Below the pieces are notes generated by a model, which worked only from the letters and a program-made list of their open reading frames with translations, ran no database searches and had not been told where the DNA came from. From positions 5,178,501-5,242,500 of the forward strand of contig NZ_CP056030.1 of assembly GCF_013374995.1 (NCBI RefSeq): a DNA stretch of 64,000 bases, given 5' to 3'. Within the stretch, counting starts at the first letter, position 1; every line of letters starts with the position of its first letter. This document shows, piece after piece, positions 45,178 to 54,420 of the stretch. The position numbers and the translations under genes were made by a program. This stretch comes from Pseudomonas eucalypticola. GTDB lineage: Bacteria; Pseudomonadota; Gammaproteobacteria; Pseudomonadales; Pseudomonadaceae.

Positions 45178-46785
45178 ATGAGCCAGCAGTATCAACACGA
45201 CGTTCTAGTGATTGGCAGTGGTGCAGCCGGGCTGAGCCTGGCCCTGACCTTGCCCGCCCATTTGCGCATCGCGGTATTGAGCAAGGGCGACCTGGCCAAC
45301 GGTTCCACGTTCTGGGCCCAGGGCGGGGTAGCCGCGGTGCTGGACGATACCGACACGGTGCAGTCCCATGTGGAGGACACCCTCAACGCTGGCGGCGGGC
45401 TGTGCCACGAAGACGCGGTGCGCTTCACCGTGGAGCACAGCCGTGAAGCCATCCAATGGCTGATCGACCAGGGCGTGCCCTTTACCCGCGACGACGACCC
45501 CGACCACGAAGAAGGCAGTTTCGAATTCCACCTGACCCGCGAGGGTGGCCACAGCCACCGGCGCATCATCCATGCCGCGGACGCCACCGGGGCGGCGATT
45601 TTCAAGACCTTGCTGGCCCAGGCCCGGCTGCGACCCAATATCGAGTTGCTGGAGCAACGGGTAGCCGTGGACCTGATCACCGAGCGTCGCCTGGGGCTGA
45701 CGGGTGACCGATGCCTGGGCGCCTATGTGCTGAACCGCCATACGGGCGAAGTCGACACCTTCGGTGCCCGCTTCACCATCCTGGCCACCGGCGGCGCCGC
45801 CAAGGTCTACCTCTATACCAGCAACCCCGATGGCGCCTGCGGTGACGGCATCGCCATGGCCTGGCGGGCCGGCTGCCGGGTGGCGAACCTGGAATTCAAC
45901 CAATTCCACCCCACCTGCCTGTATCACCCCCAGGCCAAAAGCTTCCTGGTCACCGAAGCCTTGCGCGGCGAAGGGGCCGTGCTGAAGCTGCCGAACGGCG
46001 AAAGGTTCATGCCCCGTTTCGACCCTCGCGCCGAACTGGCACCACGGGACATCGTGGCCCGCGCCATCGACCATGAAATGAAGCGCCTGGGCGTGGATTG
46101 CGTGTACCTGGACATCAGCCACAAGCCCGCCGAGTTCATCACCACGCACTTCCCCACGGTGTACGAGCGCTGCCTGACCTACGGCATCGACATCACTCGC
46201 CAGCCGATTCCCGTGGTGCCAGCGGCGCACTACACCTGCGGCGGGGTGATGGTGGACGCGCAAGGGCGCACCGACGTGCCGGGGCTGTACGCCATCGGCG
46301 AAACCACCTTCACCGGGCTGCACGGCGCCAACCGCATGGCCAGCAATTCGCTGCTCGAATGCTTCGTGTATGGCCGCTCGGCCGCTGACCACATCGTCGA
46401 CCTGCTGGCGCATATCCCGCTGCCCGAGGGCTTGCCCCACTGGGACGCCAGCCAGGTGACCGACTCGGACGAGGACGTGATCATCGCCCACAACTGGGAC
46501 GAACTGCGGCGGTTCATGTGGGACTACGTGGGCATCGTGCGCACCACCAAGCGCCTGCAACGCGCCGAACACCGGGTGCGGTTGCTGCTGGACGAGATCG
46601 ATGAGTTCTACAGCAACTACCGAGTCAGCAGAGACCTGATTGAACTGAGGAACCTTGCTCAGGTAGCGGAACTGATGATCAGGTCTGCCATGGAACGCAA
46701 GGAATCTCGGGGTCTGCACTACACGCTGGACTATCCAGAGATGCTGCCAGAGGCGAAGGATACGATCCTTACACCCGACAAATGA
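45178..46785 (+). CDS. nadB: L-aspartate oxidase with an island-supplied C-terminal tail
   Basis: The 535-residue flavoprotein oxidises aspartate to iminoaspartate, the first step of de novo NAD synthesis. It has the FAD-binding [11 protein letters not shown] and [20 protein letters not shown]. Codons up to about 46619 are native. The last 54 codons (46621-46782) lie inside the integrated island: they use AGA, AGG, CTT and ACA, rare here, yet encode nearly the native sequence and end in TPDK instead of VPPTFGD. The protein should be functional. Start at 45178 (MSQQYQHDV). Confidence 0.93.
46603..46619. repeat. attL core repeat of the nadB island
   Basis: GAGTTCTACAGCAACTA recurs at 54404 with one C/T difference. 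The identical part TACAGCAACTA (46609-46619) is the likely strand-exchange region. Coding phase of nadB is preserved through it. Confidence 0.85.
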
Positions 46786-46988
46786 GGCACGTTAGGAGAC
46801 CTCAGCGTAGCACCTAAAGCCCCCGTTTTGTAACAGCTTTGGCGCGTCTTTGTCCCATCGCTGGGGTCCTTATCGCCCACCCGTGAGGGTCTCTATAGCG
46901 CCTGTGCGAGCCCGCGAGGGCCACACGGGGGAACCTCGCCGAGTAGAAGCAATGAGGTGGTCTCTCAGATTTTTCTGTCAGATCTTCA

Positions 46989-47072
46989 TCAGGGGCCCTT
47001 GAAGCGACCGTATAGCCAGAAGGCCACATGAACAGCCACGCAGACCCAGTAGGCAGCGTGTAGCGTGTCCAT
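46989..47072 (-). CDS. Small membrane protein of 27 residues in the island
   Basis: Not a recognised family. MDTLHAAYWVCVAVHVAFWL is followed by YGRFKGP: one membrane helix with a short basic tail. The start has AAGGAG five bases upstream, which supports real translation. It is the last gene of the leftward island series, 16 bp after the KilA-N gene. Small one-helix proteins of this kind occur in phages, including as holin-like or superinfection factors, but no function can be assigned. Confidence 0.55.
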   Translation of the reverse strand: MDTLHAAYWVCVAVHVAFWLYGRFKGP

Positions 47073-47088
47073 GAGGTTCTCCTTGAGG

Positions 47089-47826
47089 TTACTTGGTGAC
47101 CCTACCCCAGCGGTCGGTCTTGTCTTTGGACTTGGCTCTGGCCTTAGCGGTCTTCGATTCGGCCACCATCAGGTTGATGCGTTCGGCCTCCTTACGGAGC
47201 CAGTCGAGACCACGGGGCTTTACTCGCCAGCCTTCACGGTTGCCGAAGTCCGATGAGGCCTTCACAAAGGCACCCACAGCGAAGCCCTGCTTATGCGGTC
47301 GTGGTGAGCCTTCACGGGTCCCGAAGTTATCTAAGGGGTACGCAAAGGCTTTCATGGAGACCAAAGCCTCAAGGGCAAGGCGTGGTTGTTTGATACCTGC
47401 CACATGGCAAGCCTCAGTCCAAGTAAGACCAGCGCCACGGGCTTTCATGTCCAGGGTCGAAGCCTTGGGCATGTTGGCGTCTAAGAGGGCGTCCTTTAGG
47501 CGAAGCTCGCGGACAGCGTGGTTACGCATAGCCACAAAGGCATCTACGACCATCACATAGAAGTCCAGTGAGCAGGCCATAGCGTAGGCAATGGTTGCCC
47601 GTTCGCTCGCATAGGTGCCGCCACTGTCACCATGGACGGTGTGCAAATTTGCACATCGGTCGAAGTAATCACGATCACGGCCACGCCATTGAGCGGGTGG
47701 CTTTGTCTGATCAGGTAGGGCCTTGTTTATTTCCGTGAGGCTCCACAGGCCCTCAGCGTTTGGCTTGAAGGTGCGCCCCTCGATAACAATAGGCAGCAGC
47801 GTGTCGGTGTTGTTAGTCATGTTCAT
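47089..47826 (-). CDS. KilA-N domain phage-type DNA-binding protein
   Basis: The 245-residue protein has a KilA-N-like domain at about residues 10-105 (GLWSLTEINKA, GGTYASERATIAYAMACSLDFYVMVVDAF) and a basic C-terminal part ending DKTDRWGRVTK. KilA-N domains bind DNA and occur in phage antirepressors and regulators. The start at 47826 (MNMTNN) is preferred over the ATG six bases later because of the AGGA spacing. It belongs to the leftward island genes. Confidence 0.7.
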   Translation of the reverse strand: MNMTNNTDTLLPIVIEGRTFKPNAEGLWSLTEINKALPDQTKPPAQWRGRDRDYFDRCANLHTVHGDSGGTYASERATIAYAMACSLDFYVMVVDAFVAMRNHAVRELRLKDALLDANMPKASTLDMKARGAGLTWTEACHVAGIKQPRLALEALVSMKAFAYPLDNFGTREGSPRPHKQGFAVGAFVKASSDFGNREGWRVKPRGLDWLRKEAERINLMVAESKTAKARAKSKDKTDRWGRVTK

Positions 47827-52527: not shown

Positions 52528-53381
52528 TCGATCAACTGCGGGCTCAAGAGCCTGTTGATCTGTTGTGCTCGGTATTTGATGTCACCCGATCTTGCTACTA
52601 CGCGTACTGCCGGAAACGTCGGTATCCGGATCCCGAACGAGTAGTCTTGCGTAGCCGCGTGAACGAGTTGTTTACGCAAAGCCGAAGCGCTGCGGGCAGC
52701 CGGAGCATCATGCTGATGATGAAAGAGGACGGTATGCAGATCGGGCGATTCAAAGTACGTAGGTTGATGCATGAGCTGAACTTGATCAGCAAACAGCCGG
52801 GCTCCCATGCCTACAAAAAGGCTACCGTGGAGCGGCCTGATATCCCGAACGTGCTTGATCGCGGGTTCAGCGTGGCATCCCCGAACAAGGTCTGGTGCGG
52901 TGACATTACGTACGTCTGGGCTGAAGGCCAATGGCACTATCTGGCGGCTGTCATCGACCTTTGTGCACGGCGTGTTGTAGGTTGGGCGTTCTCAGCCAAG
53001 CCTGATGCCGACCTGGTGATCAAGGCATTGGATATGGCCTATGAGCAGCGTGGCCGGCCTCAGAATGTGCTGTTTCACAGCGACCAGGGCAGCCAATACG
53101 GGAGCCGGAGTTTCCGCCAGAGACTATGGAGATACCGCTTCACGCAGAGCATGAGTCGGCGCGGCAACTGCCACGACAACGCGCCGATGGAGCGGCTATT
53201 TCGCAGCCTGAAGACTGAATGGATACCGCCGGTGGGCTACATGAGCGCTGTGCTGGCACAGCAAGATATCAGTCGGTTTTTGATGGAGCGGTACAACTGG
53301 CGGCGACCGCATCAATTCAACGAAGGGCTACCGCCTGCGGTCGCAGAGGAAAAACTCAATTCAGTGTCCGGGATCAGTTGA
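52219..53381 (+). CDS. IS3-family transposase OrfAB (made by -1 frameshift)
   Basis: Slippage at AAAAAAG (52476-52482) joins OrfA to the downstream frame, which carries an rve integrase core: [21 protein letters not shown] (first Asp; shown in part), FHSDQGSQY (second Asp) and the Glu in [14 protein letters not shown]. The reading frame is open to the stop eight bases before the right end. It should be an active transposase. Confidence 0.9.
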
Positions 53382-53389
53382 CCACTACA

Positions 53390-53392
53390 ATG
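53390..53392. repeat. Target site duplication ATG (right)
   Basis: Second copy of the 3-bp duplication that flanks the IS. Confidence 0.8.
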
Positions 53393-54403
53393 CGGGTCCC
53401 AGTGATCACCCCAAGGGACAGCGCCCAGCGTTGCCATGAGTCCACTGGCAGGGTCTTAGCGTGGGCCATGAGGGCCTTTACTTGGTCCTGAGAGAATGCC
53501 TCACGGGAGCTTCCAGTTCCTTTGGTCGGCTCCAGACCCTCAGTGAGCGTCTTGGTGAGGTAGTCGTTATTCACTGCCCACTTCATCACAGTTGACAGAG
53601 TGCCAAGAATTTTCTTCACCGTGCCTGCCACTCGGCCCTCATAGAGCTTGGCCCGCAGGTTCTTCATGTCCTCCCGTGTGTGGGTCTTCAGGTCCAAGTC
53701 ACCGAGGATCTCAGCGAGGGTCTTACAGGTAGACTTGACGTTTCGGTGAGTCCCTTCCCCCGCATGTTCCTTGTGCTCATCCAAATAGAGCCCTGAGAGA
53801 GTCTTAAAAGTGAGCGGTGATAAAACAGATAGAGACGGAGACAGGGGTATTGACGTGCGACAAGACTCAGCCTTGAGGCTCTCTACGATCCCCACCAGCG
53901 TCCCCGCCCTGCCCTTCATGCGTTCCTGAGACGCCTCAATGATCTCCAATGCCTTGCTCACTGCCCGTTGCTGATTGACGCTCAAGGGCATCTTAGCGCT
54001 CGCCTCACGGAGGGCCTCATGGTGCTCGTCATTGATCATCTCGTAGGCGACCAGCGAGCTATCACCGTGGGCCATCGTCAGGCAGGACTCAGCGATGTCT
54101 ATGAGACGCTCACGGAGTTCGTTCCAAGTGGCCTCAGGGTTGTCGAAGTGATACGCCTTGAGGGTCGTGAGGATGTCCTTGGAGATGGTCATAGCGGTGG
54201 CCTTATCGGTGGTCCTGAGCGATAGCGTGAAAAAGCCCTTAGCGGTGCCTTGAGGGCGAAGGCGAAGGTAATAGCGACCAGACCGGCGATAGTGGTATGG
54301 CTTGGCGAGGGCAGTTTGTAACAGGTTTGTCCCAGTTTGGGAGCGCTGGTTGATGGTCATCGGCTGAAACCCCTGTATCCATTGGGTTTAGCCTCATCGC
54401 GTC

Positions 54404-54420
54404 GAGTTTTACAGCAACTA
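54404..54420. repeat. attR core repeat of the nadB island
   Basis: GAGTTTTACAGCAACTA matches attL at 46603 with one difference. Everything after it is native nadB sequence in frame. The implied empty site would read GAGTTCTACAGCAACTATAAAGTC in two joined parts of native nadB. Confidence 0.85.

Follow-up and report, generated by a model that had tools for sequence, protein, structure and literature searches.

A small integrative element in Pseudomonas nadB that very likely supplies a replacement end for the gene

Replacement of the tail of a coding gene by an integrating element is already known, the e14 prophage in icd being an example. Here we describe a region of Pseudomonas eucalypticola that is very likely a small integrative element in nadB, equipped with its own tyrosine integrase and with an attachment site that supplies a replacement tail for the gene. 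The element lies in a stretch of 64,000 nucleotides of contig NZ_CP056030.1 (positions 5,178,501 to 5,242,500; assembly GCF_013374995.1), referred to as the window, whose coordinates are used below. We propose that the integrase would insert into nadB at a core near TTCTACAGCAACT and that the attachment site would carry a complete nadB 3' end (54 codons plus stop), such that integration swaps out the native tail and nadB stays readable. The native tail would come to sit past the right repeat, and excision would rejoin nadB to it; we infer that this restores native nadB, that NadB with the element-borne tail is active and that the element travels in the manner of a minimal phage satellite. At the level of sequence comparison, the case is made by the repeats, the in-frame swap, island-free sites, the many carriers, the occurrence of the tail at sites other than nadB, and purifying selection.

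Two 17-bp repeats delimit the element: GAGTTCTACAGCAACTA at 46603-46619 (+), the attL core, found at the same position in 18 other islands, and GAGTTTTACAGCAACTA at 54404-54420 (+), the attR core. They differ by a single mismatch, and the whole span is 7,801 bp. The gene nadB (45178-46785, +) scores 992.7 bits, element tail included, against a curated L-aspartate oxidase model (NCBIfam equivalog NF006567, cut-off 629). Its host part runs up to the left repeat (45178-46602, +); the frame remains open across that repeat and continues, in frame, into the element-borne tail of 54 codons plus stop (46620-46785, +; stop codon 46783-46785). At the far end lies the displaced native tail (54421-54595, +), which shares 91% identity with the element tail across 58 amino acids; its frame is open from the right repeat onward, and its stop codon is at 54593-54595. 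Counted past the common EFYSNY, the two tails are identical at 47 of 52 residues, and 27 of these 47 use different codons. Third-position GC content (GC3) falls from 0.85 in the nadB body to 0.67 in the new tail; the displaced tail has 0.84. The original prediction, made from the window alone, had described two 17-bp repeats with one mismatch bounding 7.8 kb, followed on the left by 54 codons of foreign codon choice; coordinates and mismatch were confirmed, and its count of identical and respelled residues was reproduced exactly.

The span contains a 1,235-bp insertion sequence (52155-53389; 52152-53392, +, with the ATG on either side), recognized by its inverted ends, the flanking ATG and transposase PHROG matches, and presumably of the IS3 family, judging by its two-frame layout. 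Net of this insertion the element proper measures about 6,563 bp. The insertion divides the tyrosine integrase (ORF limits 51686-52180 and 53374-54360) into a C-terminal catalytic piece (51686-52151, -; PF00589, E 1.1e-7), whose listed ORF extends to 52180 within the insertion, and an N-terminal piece (53393-54360, -; phrog_1 integrase, E 1.8e-18), whose ORF continues to 53374. Because its integrase is split, the window copy, the only one in its genome, is probably immobile unless helped in trans. Next to the integrase an element-borne right arm (54380-54403, +) begins CATTGGGTTTAGCCTC, and all 19 islands share these 16 bases without change; a scan with the right arm returned 10 matching stretches.

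Is this arrangement peculiar to one genome? We searched 398 genomes of the genus, one of them that of the window (genomes and loci are denoted by G and L numbers). Integrase relatives at E of at most 1e-10 were found in 63 and two or more nadB-tail matches in 22. A close integrase accompanied the tails in 20 of the 22, namely 18 at 67-83% identity, G034 and the window itself, and relatives of the window integrase that adjoin nadB tails share 66-86% identity with it. The G034 integrase is in two pieces (86 and 61% identity) and in two or more frames; in other close relatives the integrase is an open frame of 484-503 amino acids. The two genomes without a close integrase are G037, with a decayed island, and G103, with tail fragments 3' of nadB and a distant integrase elsewhere. 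In G103 (L087) these are two short part-repeats of the tail (24 residues, 75%), approximately 240 and 500 bp past an intact nadB. In all, nadB is occupied in 20 genomes, 19 with a close integrase plus the decayed G037, and G207 carries its copy in another gene.

We aligned 19 complete nadB islands, the window and 18 further loci; the tail analysis omitted G105, G106, G390, G030 (split over contigs), L077 (secondary site), L081 (decayed), L113 (other site), L114 and duplicate loci. L114, a contig of 6 kb that bears the name Streptomyces sp. IBSBF 2953, holds part of the Pseudomonas nadB tail and the integrase, and is probably contamination. All 19 islands show an in-frame tail join and a displaced tail 44 bp from the integrase start; 48-51 of the 54 tail codons encode the same residue, and 19-30 of those are spelled differently. 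Chance can be dismissed, as the 18 islands other than that of the window repeat the arrangement down to the 44-bp gap. Island-free loci, chosen as the best tail matches of the genus search and not by random draw, have ygfX directly after nadB in 13 of 13 cases inspected (L051-L065 minus L054 and L056, whose genomes carry an element). The original prediction of integration inside nadB with in-frame tail replacement is supported by this recurrence and by the island-free sites. It had further anticipated empty sites with a continuous junction and different cargo at the same site in other strains; the former were found in all 13 loci, and islands with partly different cargo do occupy the site elsewhere.

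The tail also accompanies the element to other genes. In G207 the element sits in a lysine-decarboxylase-like gene (LOG, TIGR00730) that runs into the element's nadB tail: the first part of the fusion matches Lysine_decarbox and TIGR00730, its end the C-terminus of NadB / Succ_DH_flav_C, and an intact nadB is present elsewhere in the genome. In G030 a solute-binding-protein gene is fused to a nadB-tail copy (SBP_bac_5, then Succ_DH_flav_C), the draft contig ending within the tail. Finding this tail joined to unrelated genes in two genomes, we conclude that it belongs to the element. Both junctions share TTCTACAGCAA, which indicates that the core decides the target, and that the tail restores a protein only at nadB.

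Related integrases swap tails at the ends of further genes, whose families were assigned from L138, L134 and L142. About 95 residues are swapped at a tesA-like hydrolase gene (L138, L139, L113, L141, L144), 43-55 at a LysR-type gene (L142, L143, L145, L148) and 13 at a DUF6231 gene ending FWANPENFGKYWW or similar; the loci at this last site are L130, L133, L134 and L135 (main repeat), L132 (second repeat) and L131 (that tail at the far end). An additional repeat, GTGGAGTTTCTTGCC or similar, occurs in L153, L154 and L146. In the integrase tree, from which the window and L070 were excluded as too short, the nadB-site group is complete at 21 of 21 with a support of 0.979; it consists of 20 nadB-site integrases, including those of L083, L085 and L089, where nadB body and displaced tail are on separate contigs, with that of the secondary-site locus L077 placed within. 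The FWANP group (6 of 6, support 1.0), the tesA group (five plus one without assigned site, 0.869) and the LysR group (four plus one without assigned site, 1.0) are likewise recovered. Judged by this tree, integrase clades respect target sites.

How old is the element-borne tail, and what has kept it? In a tree of 19 island tails and 32 native tails (19 displaced, 13 island-free), every island tail falls into a single clade (local support 0.999), and the closest native tail is that of L051. The proportion of synonymous differences (pS) is 0.23 among island tails, 0.47 among native tails and approximately 0.75 between the two, with median ratios of nonsynonymous to synonymous change (dN/dS) of 0.09, 0.06 and 0.04, respectively. 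Island and native tails share 74% nucleotide identity at a near-identical protein. GC3 is 0.61 for island tails and 0.67 for integrases, against 0.79 for nadB bodies and 0.83 for native tails. This codon divergence fits an old captured tail that has been kept functional while drifting with the element. Low dN/dS together with drift in codon use explains it, so no special selection for recoding is needed. The original prediction held that the island had evolved to rebuild the gene while diverging in DNA; this calls for no special recoding, the tail being a single lineage under strong purifying selection, with near-saturated synonymous divergence from native tails (pS near 0.75) and a GC3 nearer to that of the integrases than to that of host nadB. 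The window's displaced tail is of native type at 16 of 19 diagnostic positions and of neither type at 3, and that of L091 (G030) is of island type at the first 7 of 19, then native except for 2 of neither type. Island and native tails probably exchange by homologous recombination.

Could two tails have arisen without an integrating element? Had the 3' end of nadB simply been duplicated, or been exchanged for the allele of a foreign nadB while the 7.8 kb arrived separately, two tails with different codon use would also be present, and conversion between tail types does seem to occur (L051, L091). We find this hardly credible, however: in each of the 19 islands the integrase keeps its 44-bp distance from the displaced tail, and island-free sites exist; moreover, island tails are 92% alike in DNA, whereas the preceding nadB stretches (86%) and the native tails (85%) differ as the hosts do, and the presence of one tail at two unrelated genes already contradicts such an origin. 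A separate proposal is that the codon divergence was itself selected, as a block to recombination between the tails and to looping-out of the element. The low nucleotide identity at a near-identical protein would suit it, as would mosaic tails, which suggest that homologous exchange happens. Yet near-saturated synonymous change and a tail GC3 close to that of the integrase are what drift in a long-lived mobile lineage would leave, and the repeats of L142, at the LysR-type site, match at 98.8% across 84 bp, so an element can do without divergence between its repeats. We consider selected divergence unlikely and prefer neutral drift under protein-level selection.

Several observations weigh against the reading of an integrative element with a captured tail. 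The element in the window is broken, and the support comes from comparing sequences, with excision, a circular form and NadB activity remaining predicted. Co-inheritance of tail and integrase was expected and is contradicted for the N-terminal integrase parts, to which island-tail distances are unrelated (Mantel r -0.15 and -0.01). Island-tail distance follows the catalytic part weakly (r 0.32, p 0.038) and better follows the hosts' native tails (r 0.48, p 0.0005) and nadB bodies (r 0.41, p 0.0035); tail and integrase have therefore been reshuffled, or the elements have spread mostly among close hosts. A host's own native tail is also slightly closer to its island tail than are those of others (0.743 vs 0.737, p 0.017). 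Finally, the island-free locus L051 (G187) has a mosaic tail, of island type at 13 of 19 diagnostic positions and native at 5. We read it as the probable scar of past residence plus conversion; alternatively, L051 may be near the source lineage of the island tail. The original prediction would have had no island-free strain carry the left-hand tail, which, taken literally, is touched by this mosaic; nadB-ygfX junctions do exist. As for a satellite life, no helper, particle or phage record supports it, although 50,697 phage records were searched for the capsid-like protein described below.

Apart from the integrase and the insertion sequence, the window element encodes the following products on the minus strand. 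An antirepressor-like regulator (47089-47865; PHROG phrog_129 transcriptional regulator, E 8e-6) has homologues in other islands that are in some cases of Rha, Bro-N or KilA-N type. A 334-amino-acid capsid-like protein with a predicted HK97 fold (48259-49263) adjoins a DUF6971 protein (49314-49823, conserved start probably at 49715; PF22318, E 6e-6, slightly below cut-off), the structural model of which has a single weak relative, Shigella SF216 (5eur, Foldseek E 2.4e-3). These are followed by a conserved small protein of 96 amino acids (49926-50216), with homologues in 2 other islands of the set of 19, and by a TIR-domain protein, a defence-like cargo (50774-51601; PF13676, E 2.6e-8; PADLOC TIR-TM, E 9e-75). 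A 95% identical TIR protein is found at L133 (9668-10492), inside an element at another target gene; cargo of such near-identity in elements at two different target genes indicates that it moves between integrase lineages. Outside the element, ygfX (cptA-like; 54564-55016, -; PF07254, E 4e-13) lies tail-to-tail with the native nadB end and overlaps it.

The elements are of narrow size. Those with a capsid-like gene and mapped ends, 26 from Pseudomonas and E. coli, measure 6,517 +/- 94 bp (6,366-6,688), whereas 18 relatives without the gene range from 6,251 to 13,440 bp (Levene p 6e-6) and the nine of these from the same integrase clades measure 7,075 +/- 735 bp (p 6e-7), p values that are descriptive only, the elements being related. 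For the window the insertion was subtracted. L132 was measured from its second repeat, giving 6,654 rather than 6,454, and L176 from a repeat of 15 bp within the split gene, giving 6,534 where the inner repeats would give 6,269 and 6,258; L133 was taken as capsid-positive though its match ends at residue 309 of 334. The capsid-positive group omits the 13-kb L068 and L074; L146 and L131 (partial gene); L149, L155, L169 and L172 (ends unmapped or no integrase); and E. coli L173, L174, L175, L177 and L178 (ends not found, or insertions inside). The comparison group omits L156, L140, L157, L158, L136, L137, L147, L163, L170 and L171 (repeat ambiguous or absent, or element truncated at a contig end). 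L068 and L074 are nadB islands of approximately 13.0 kb with capsid-like genes; they resemble two elements abreast with one integrase, and no third core repeat was found inside. L135, L139, L144 and L113 (7.7-7.9 kb) have no intact capsid-like gene, and their cargo is large: in L135 an 853-residue SIR2-like protein, in L144 a 690-residue AAA_23 protein, and in L139 (similarly in L113) a block of four genes, two radical SAM proteins among their products. We did not press a reading of 6.5, 7.8 and 13.0 kb as fractions of a 39-kb helper genome, as the 7.7-7.9 class is made up of these four large-cargo elements and the 13-kb islands look composite.

Gene content was surveyed in 147 island ORFs of at least 70 amino acids, a set that keeps the longest of overlapping ORFs and so misses some genes, such as the L068 capsid-like gene. 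No terminase, portal or tail family was found among them with Pfam, nor a primase family (Pfam, E 1e-3) or AlpA at that minimum length; for PHROG, the families considered are the first 25 of 76. The largest ORF besides the integrase and the window transposase has 422 residues.

The capsid-like protein is present in 16 of 19 nadB islands (15 by ORF cluster, L068 by profile) and absent from L069-L071. None of the Pfam, PHROG and NCBIfam models searched names it, and among sequences of solved structures its profile retrieved nothing meaningful (two matches, at E 0.5); the fold comparison is the only informative structural evidence. Some homologues (P0077, P0108 and others; L076) bear a C-terminal Ig-like (Big_2) extra domain. 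The profile matched 30 of 398 genus genomes and none of 292 other genomes in an order-wide draw of 293, some of the same genus; a viral-contig search returned 4 relatives. A relative in an Enterobacter record is 31% identical across 74% of the protein (E 2e-26). The Enterobacter record L151 (NZ_CP126871.1), filed as a plasmid, includes a long chromosomal-looking stretch (ygfX to lysS) with a related element; this one sits at tRNA-Gly, and an insertion sequence breaks up its integrase. An E. coli version matched in 164 of 5,426 E. coli genomes, in 161 over most of the gene and in 153 at 60-80% DNA identity. The E. coli element sits at tRNA-Gly (6,372 bp, 17-bp repeat) or splits a DMSO/selenate-reductase gene beside ynfF, of which both halves are found in five of six loci (6,534 bp in L176). 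Its integrase is 32% identical to a nadB-site integrase (E 2e-64) and its DUF6971-like neighbour 20% identical (E 2e-4); its small regulator-like protein has no match to the window's regulator. That E. coli relatives are built of comparable parts speaks for the integrative-element reading.

What kind of element is this? Phage-type genes, antirepressor-like and capsid-like, next to a broken integrase might be expected of a larger prophage in decay. Independent decay would not, however, converge on one size, whereas 16 of the 19 nadB islands fall within 6.25-6.74 kb, the window measures 6.56 kb net, and the 26 capsid-positive elements keep to 6,517 +/- 94 bp; the absence of terminase, portal and tail families from the surveyed ORFs (Pfam) also tells against it. 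We regard a decayed prophage as very unlikely. A cargo-carrying genomic island without phage ties, its capsid-like gene a passenger or an encapsulin-like shell, is a doubtful reading, to which we nevertheless grant a real minority chance: the TIR cargo is defence-like, L069-L071 do without the capsid-like gene, the phage records contain no match to it, and VIA gives encapsulins scores as high as those of phage capsids. Set against this are the frequency of the gene in nadB islands and its persistence, at 31% identity, in enterobacterial relatives, in the company of a DUF6971-like neighbour and of antirepressor-type or KilA-N genes. Narrow size, a capsid-like gene, antirepressor-type genes and changing, defence-like cargo point to a minimal satellite-like family, and it is possible that the elements are minimal phage satellites. 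More tentatively, as an idea that falls somewhat short of probable, the nadB islands may be an undescribed satellite family of approximately 6.5 kb in Pseudomonas and E. coli that makes its own HK97-fold shell or alters that of a helper, the shell or whole-number concatemer packaging fixing the 6.5 kb, with integrases that time and again shift to a new 3' gene end by capturing its tail. Each lineage would then carry a fossil of the host gene on which it depends.

Comparison with known systems relies on passages of the papers cited. The e14 prophage supplies the end of E. coli icd and displaces the native end (163 bp; PMC6379469). Its hallmarks recur here: repeats in the 3' part of an enzyme gene, an in-frame homologous tail supplied by the element, the native tail at the far end and a tyrosine integrase at one end. 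The nadB islands differ from e14 in their target and in size (6.5 kb vs 15.2 kb), in tails that diverge at over half of the identical-residue codons, and in a wider family that swaps tails at several genes. The phage-inducible chromosomal minimalist islands (PICMIs) of Vibrionaceae, satellites of approximately 6.1 kb with 17-bp direct repeats, an integrase and accessory defence systems (PMC10803314), are similar in size, repeats, integrase and defence cargo. PICMIs, however, lie downstream of fis without capsid-remodelling genes (PMC10803314), whereas our elements occupy coding genes (nadB, or tesA-like, LysR-type and DUF6231 gene ends; not fis) and usually have the capsid-like gene. With Gram-negative phage-inducible chromosomal islands (PICIs), a group in which some are embedded in their helper and of which 21 of 29 reference members have a major capsid gene, they share integrase clades that track target sites, antirepressor-network proteins and, often, such a gene (PMC10111431). 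Unlike those PICIs, described as 10-20 kb with AlpA and primase (PMC10111431), the nadB islands target host genes and yielded no primase family among their ORFs. Like capsid-forming PICIs, they appear to encode a capsid protein of their own, with predicted HK97 fold, in a satellite-sized element. The usual head module of capsid-forming PICIs includes portal and terminase, families not found among the 147 island ORFs (Pfam). A literature search by title, which did not extend to supplements that may list nadB, found no paper on nadB or L-aspartate oxidase as the integration site of a genomic island or prophage or as a Pseudomonas attB. Likewise, nadB is absent from the main text, supplements aside, of an integrase-prospecting paper (PMC12884075).

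One integrase family replaces the tails of several genes, those for NadB, a tesA-like hydrolase, a LysR-type regulator and a DUF6231 protein. With so many natural replicates, it becomes measurable how integrases gain protein-gene targets and for how long a captured tail stays functional, and nadB might serve as a natural landing site in Pseudomonas.

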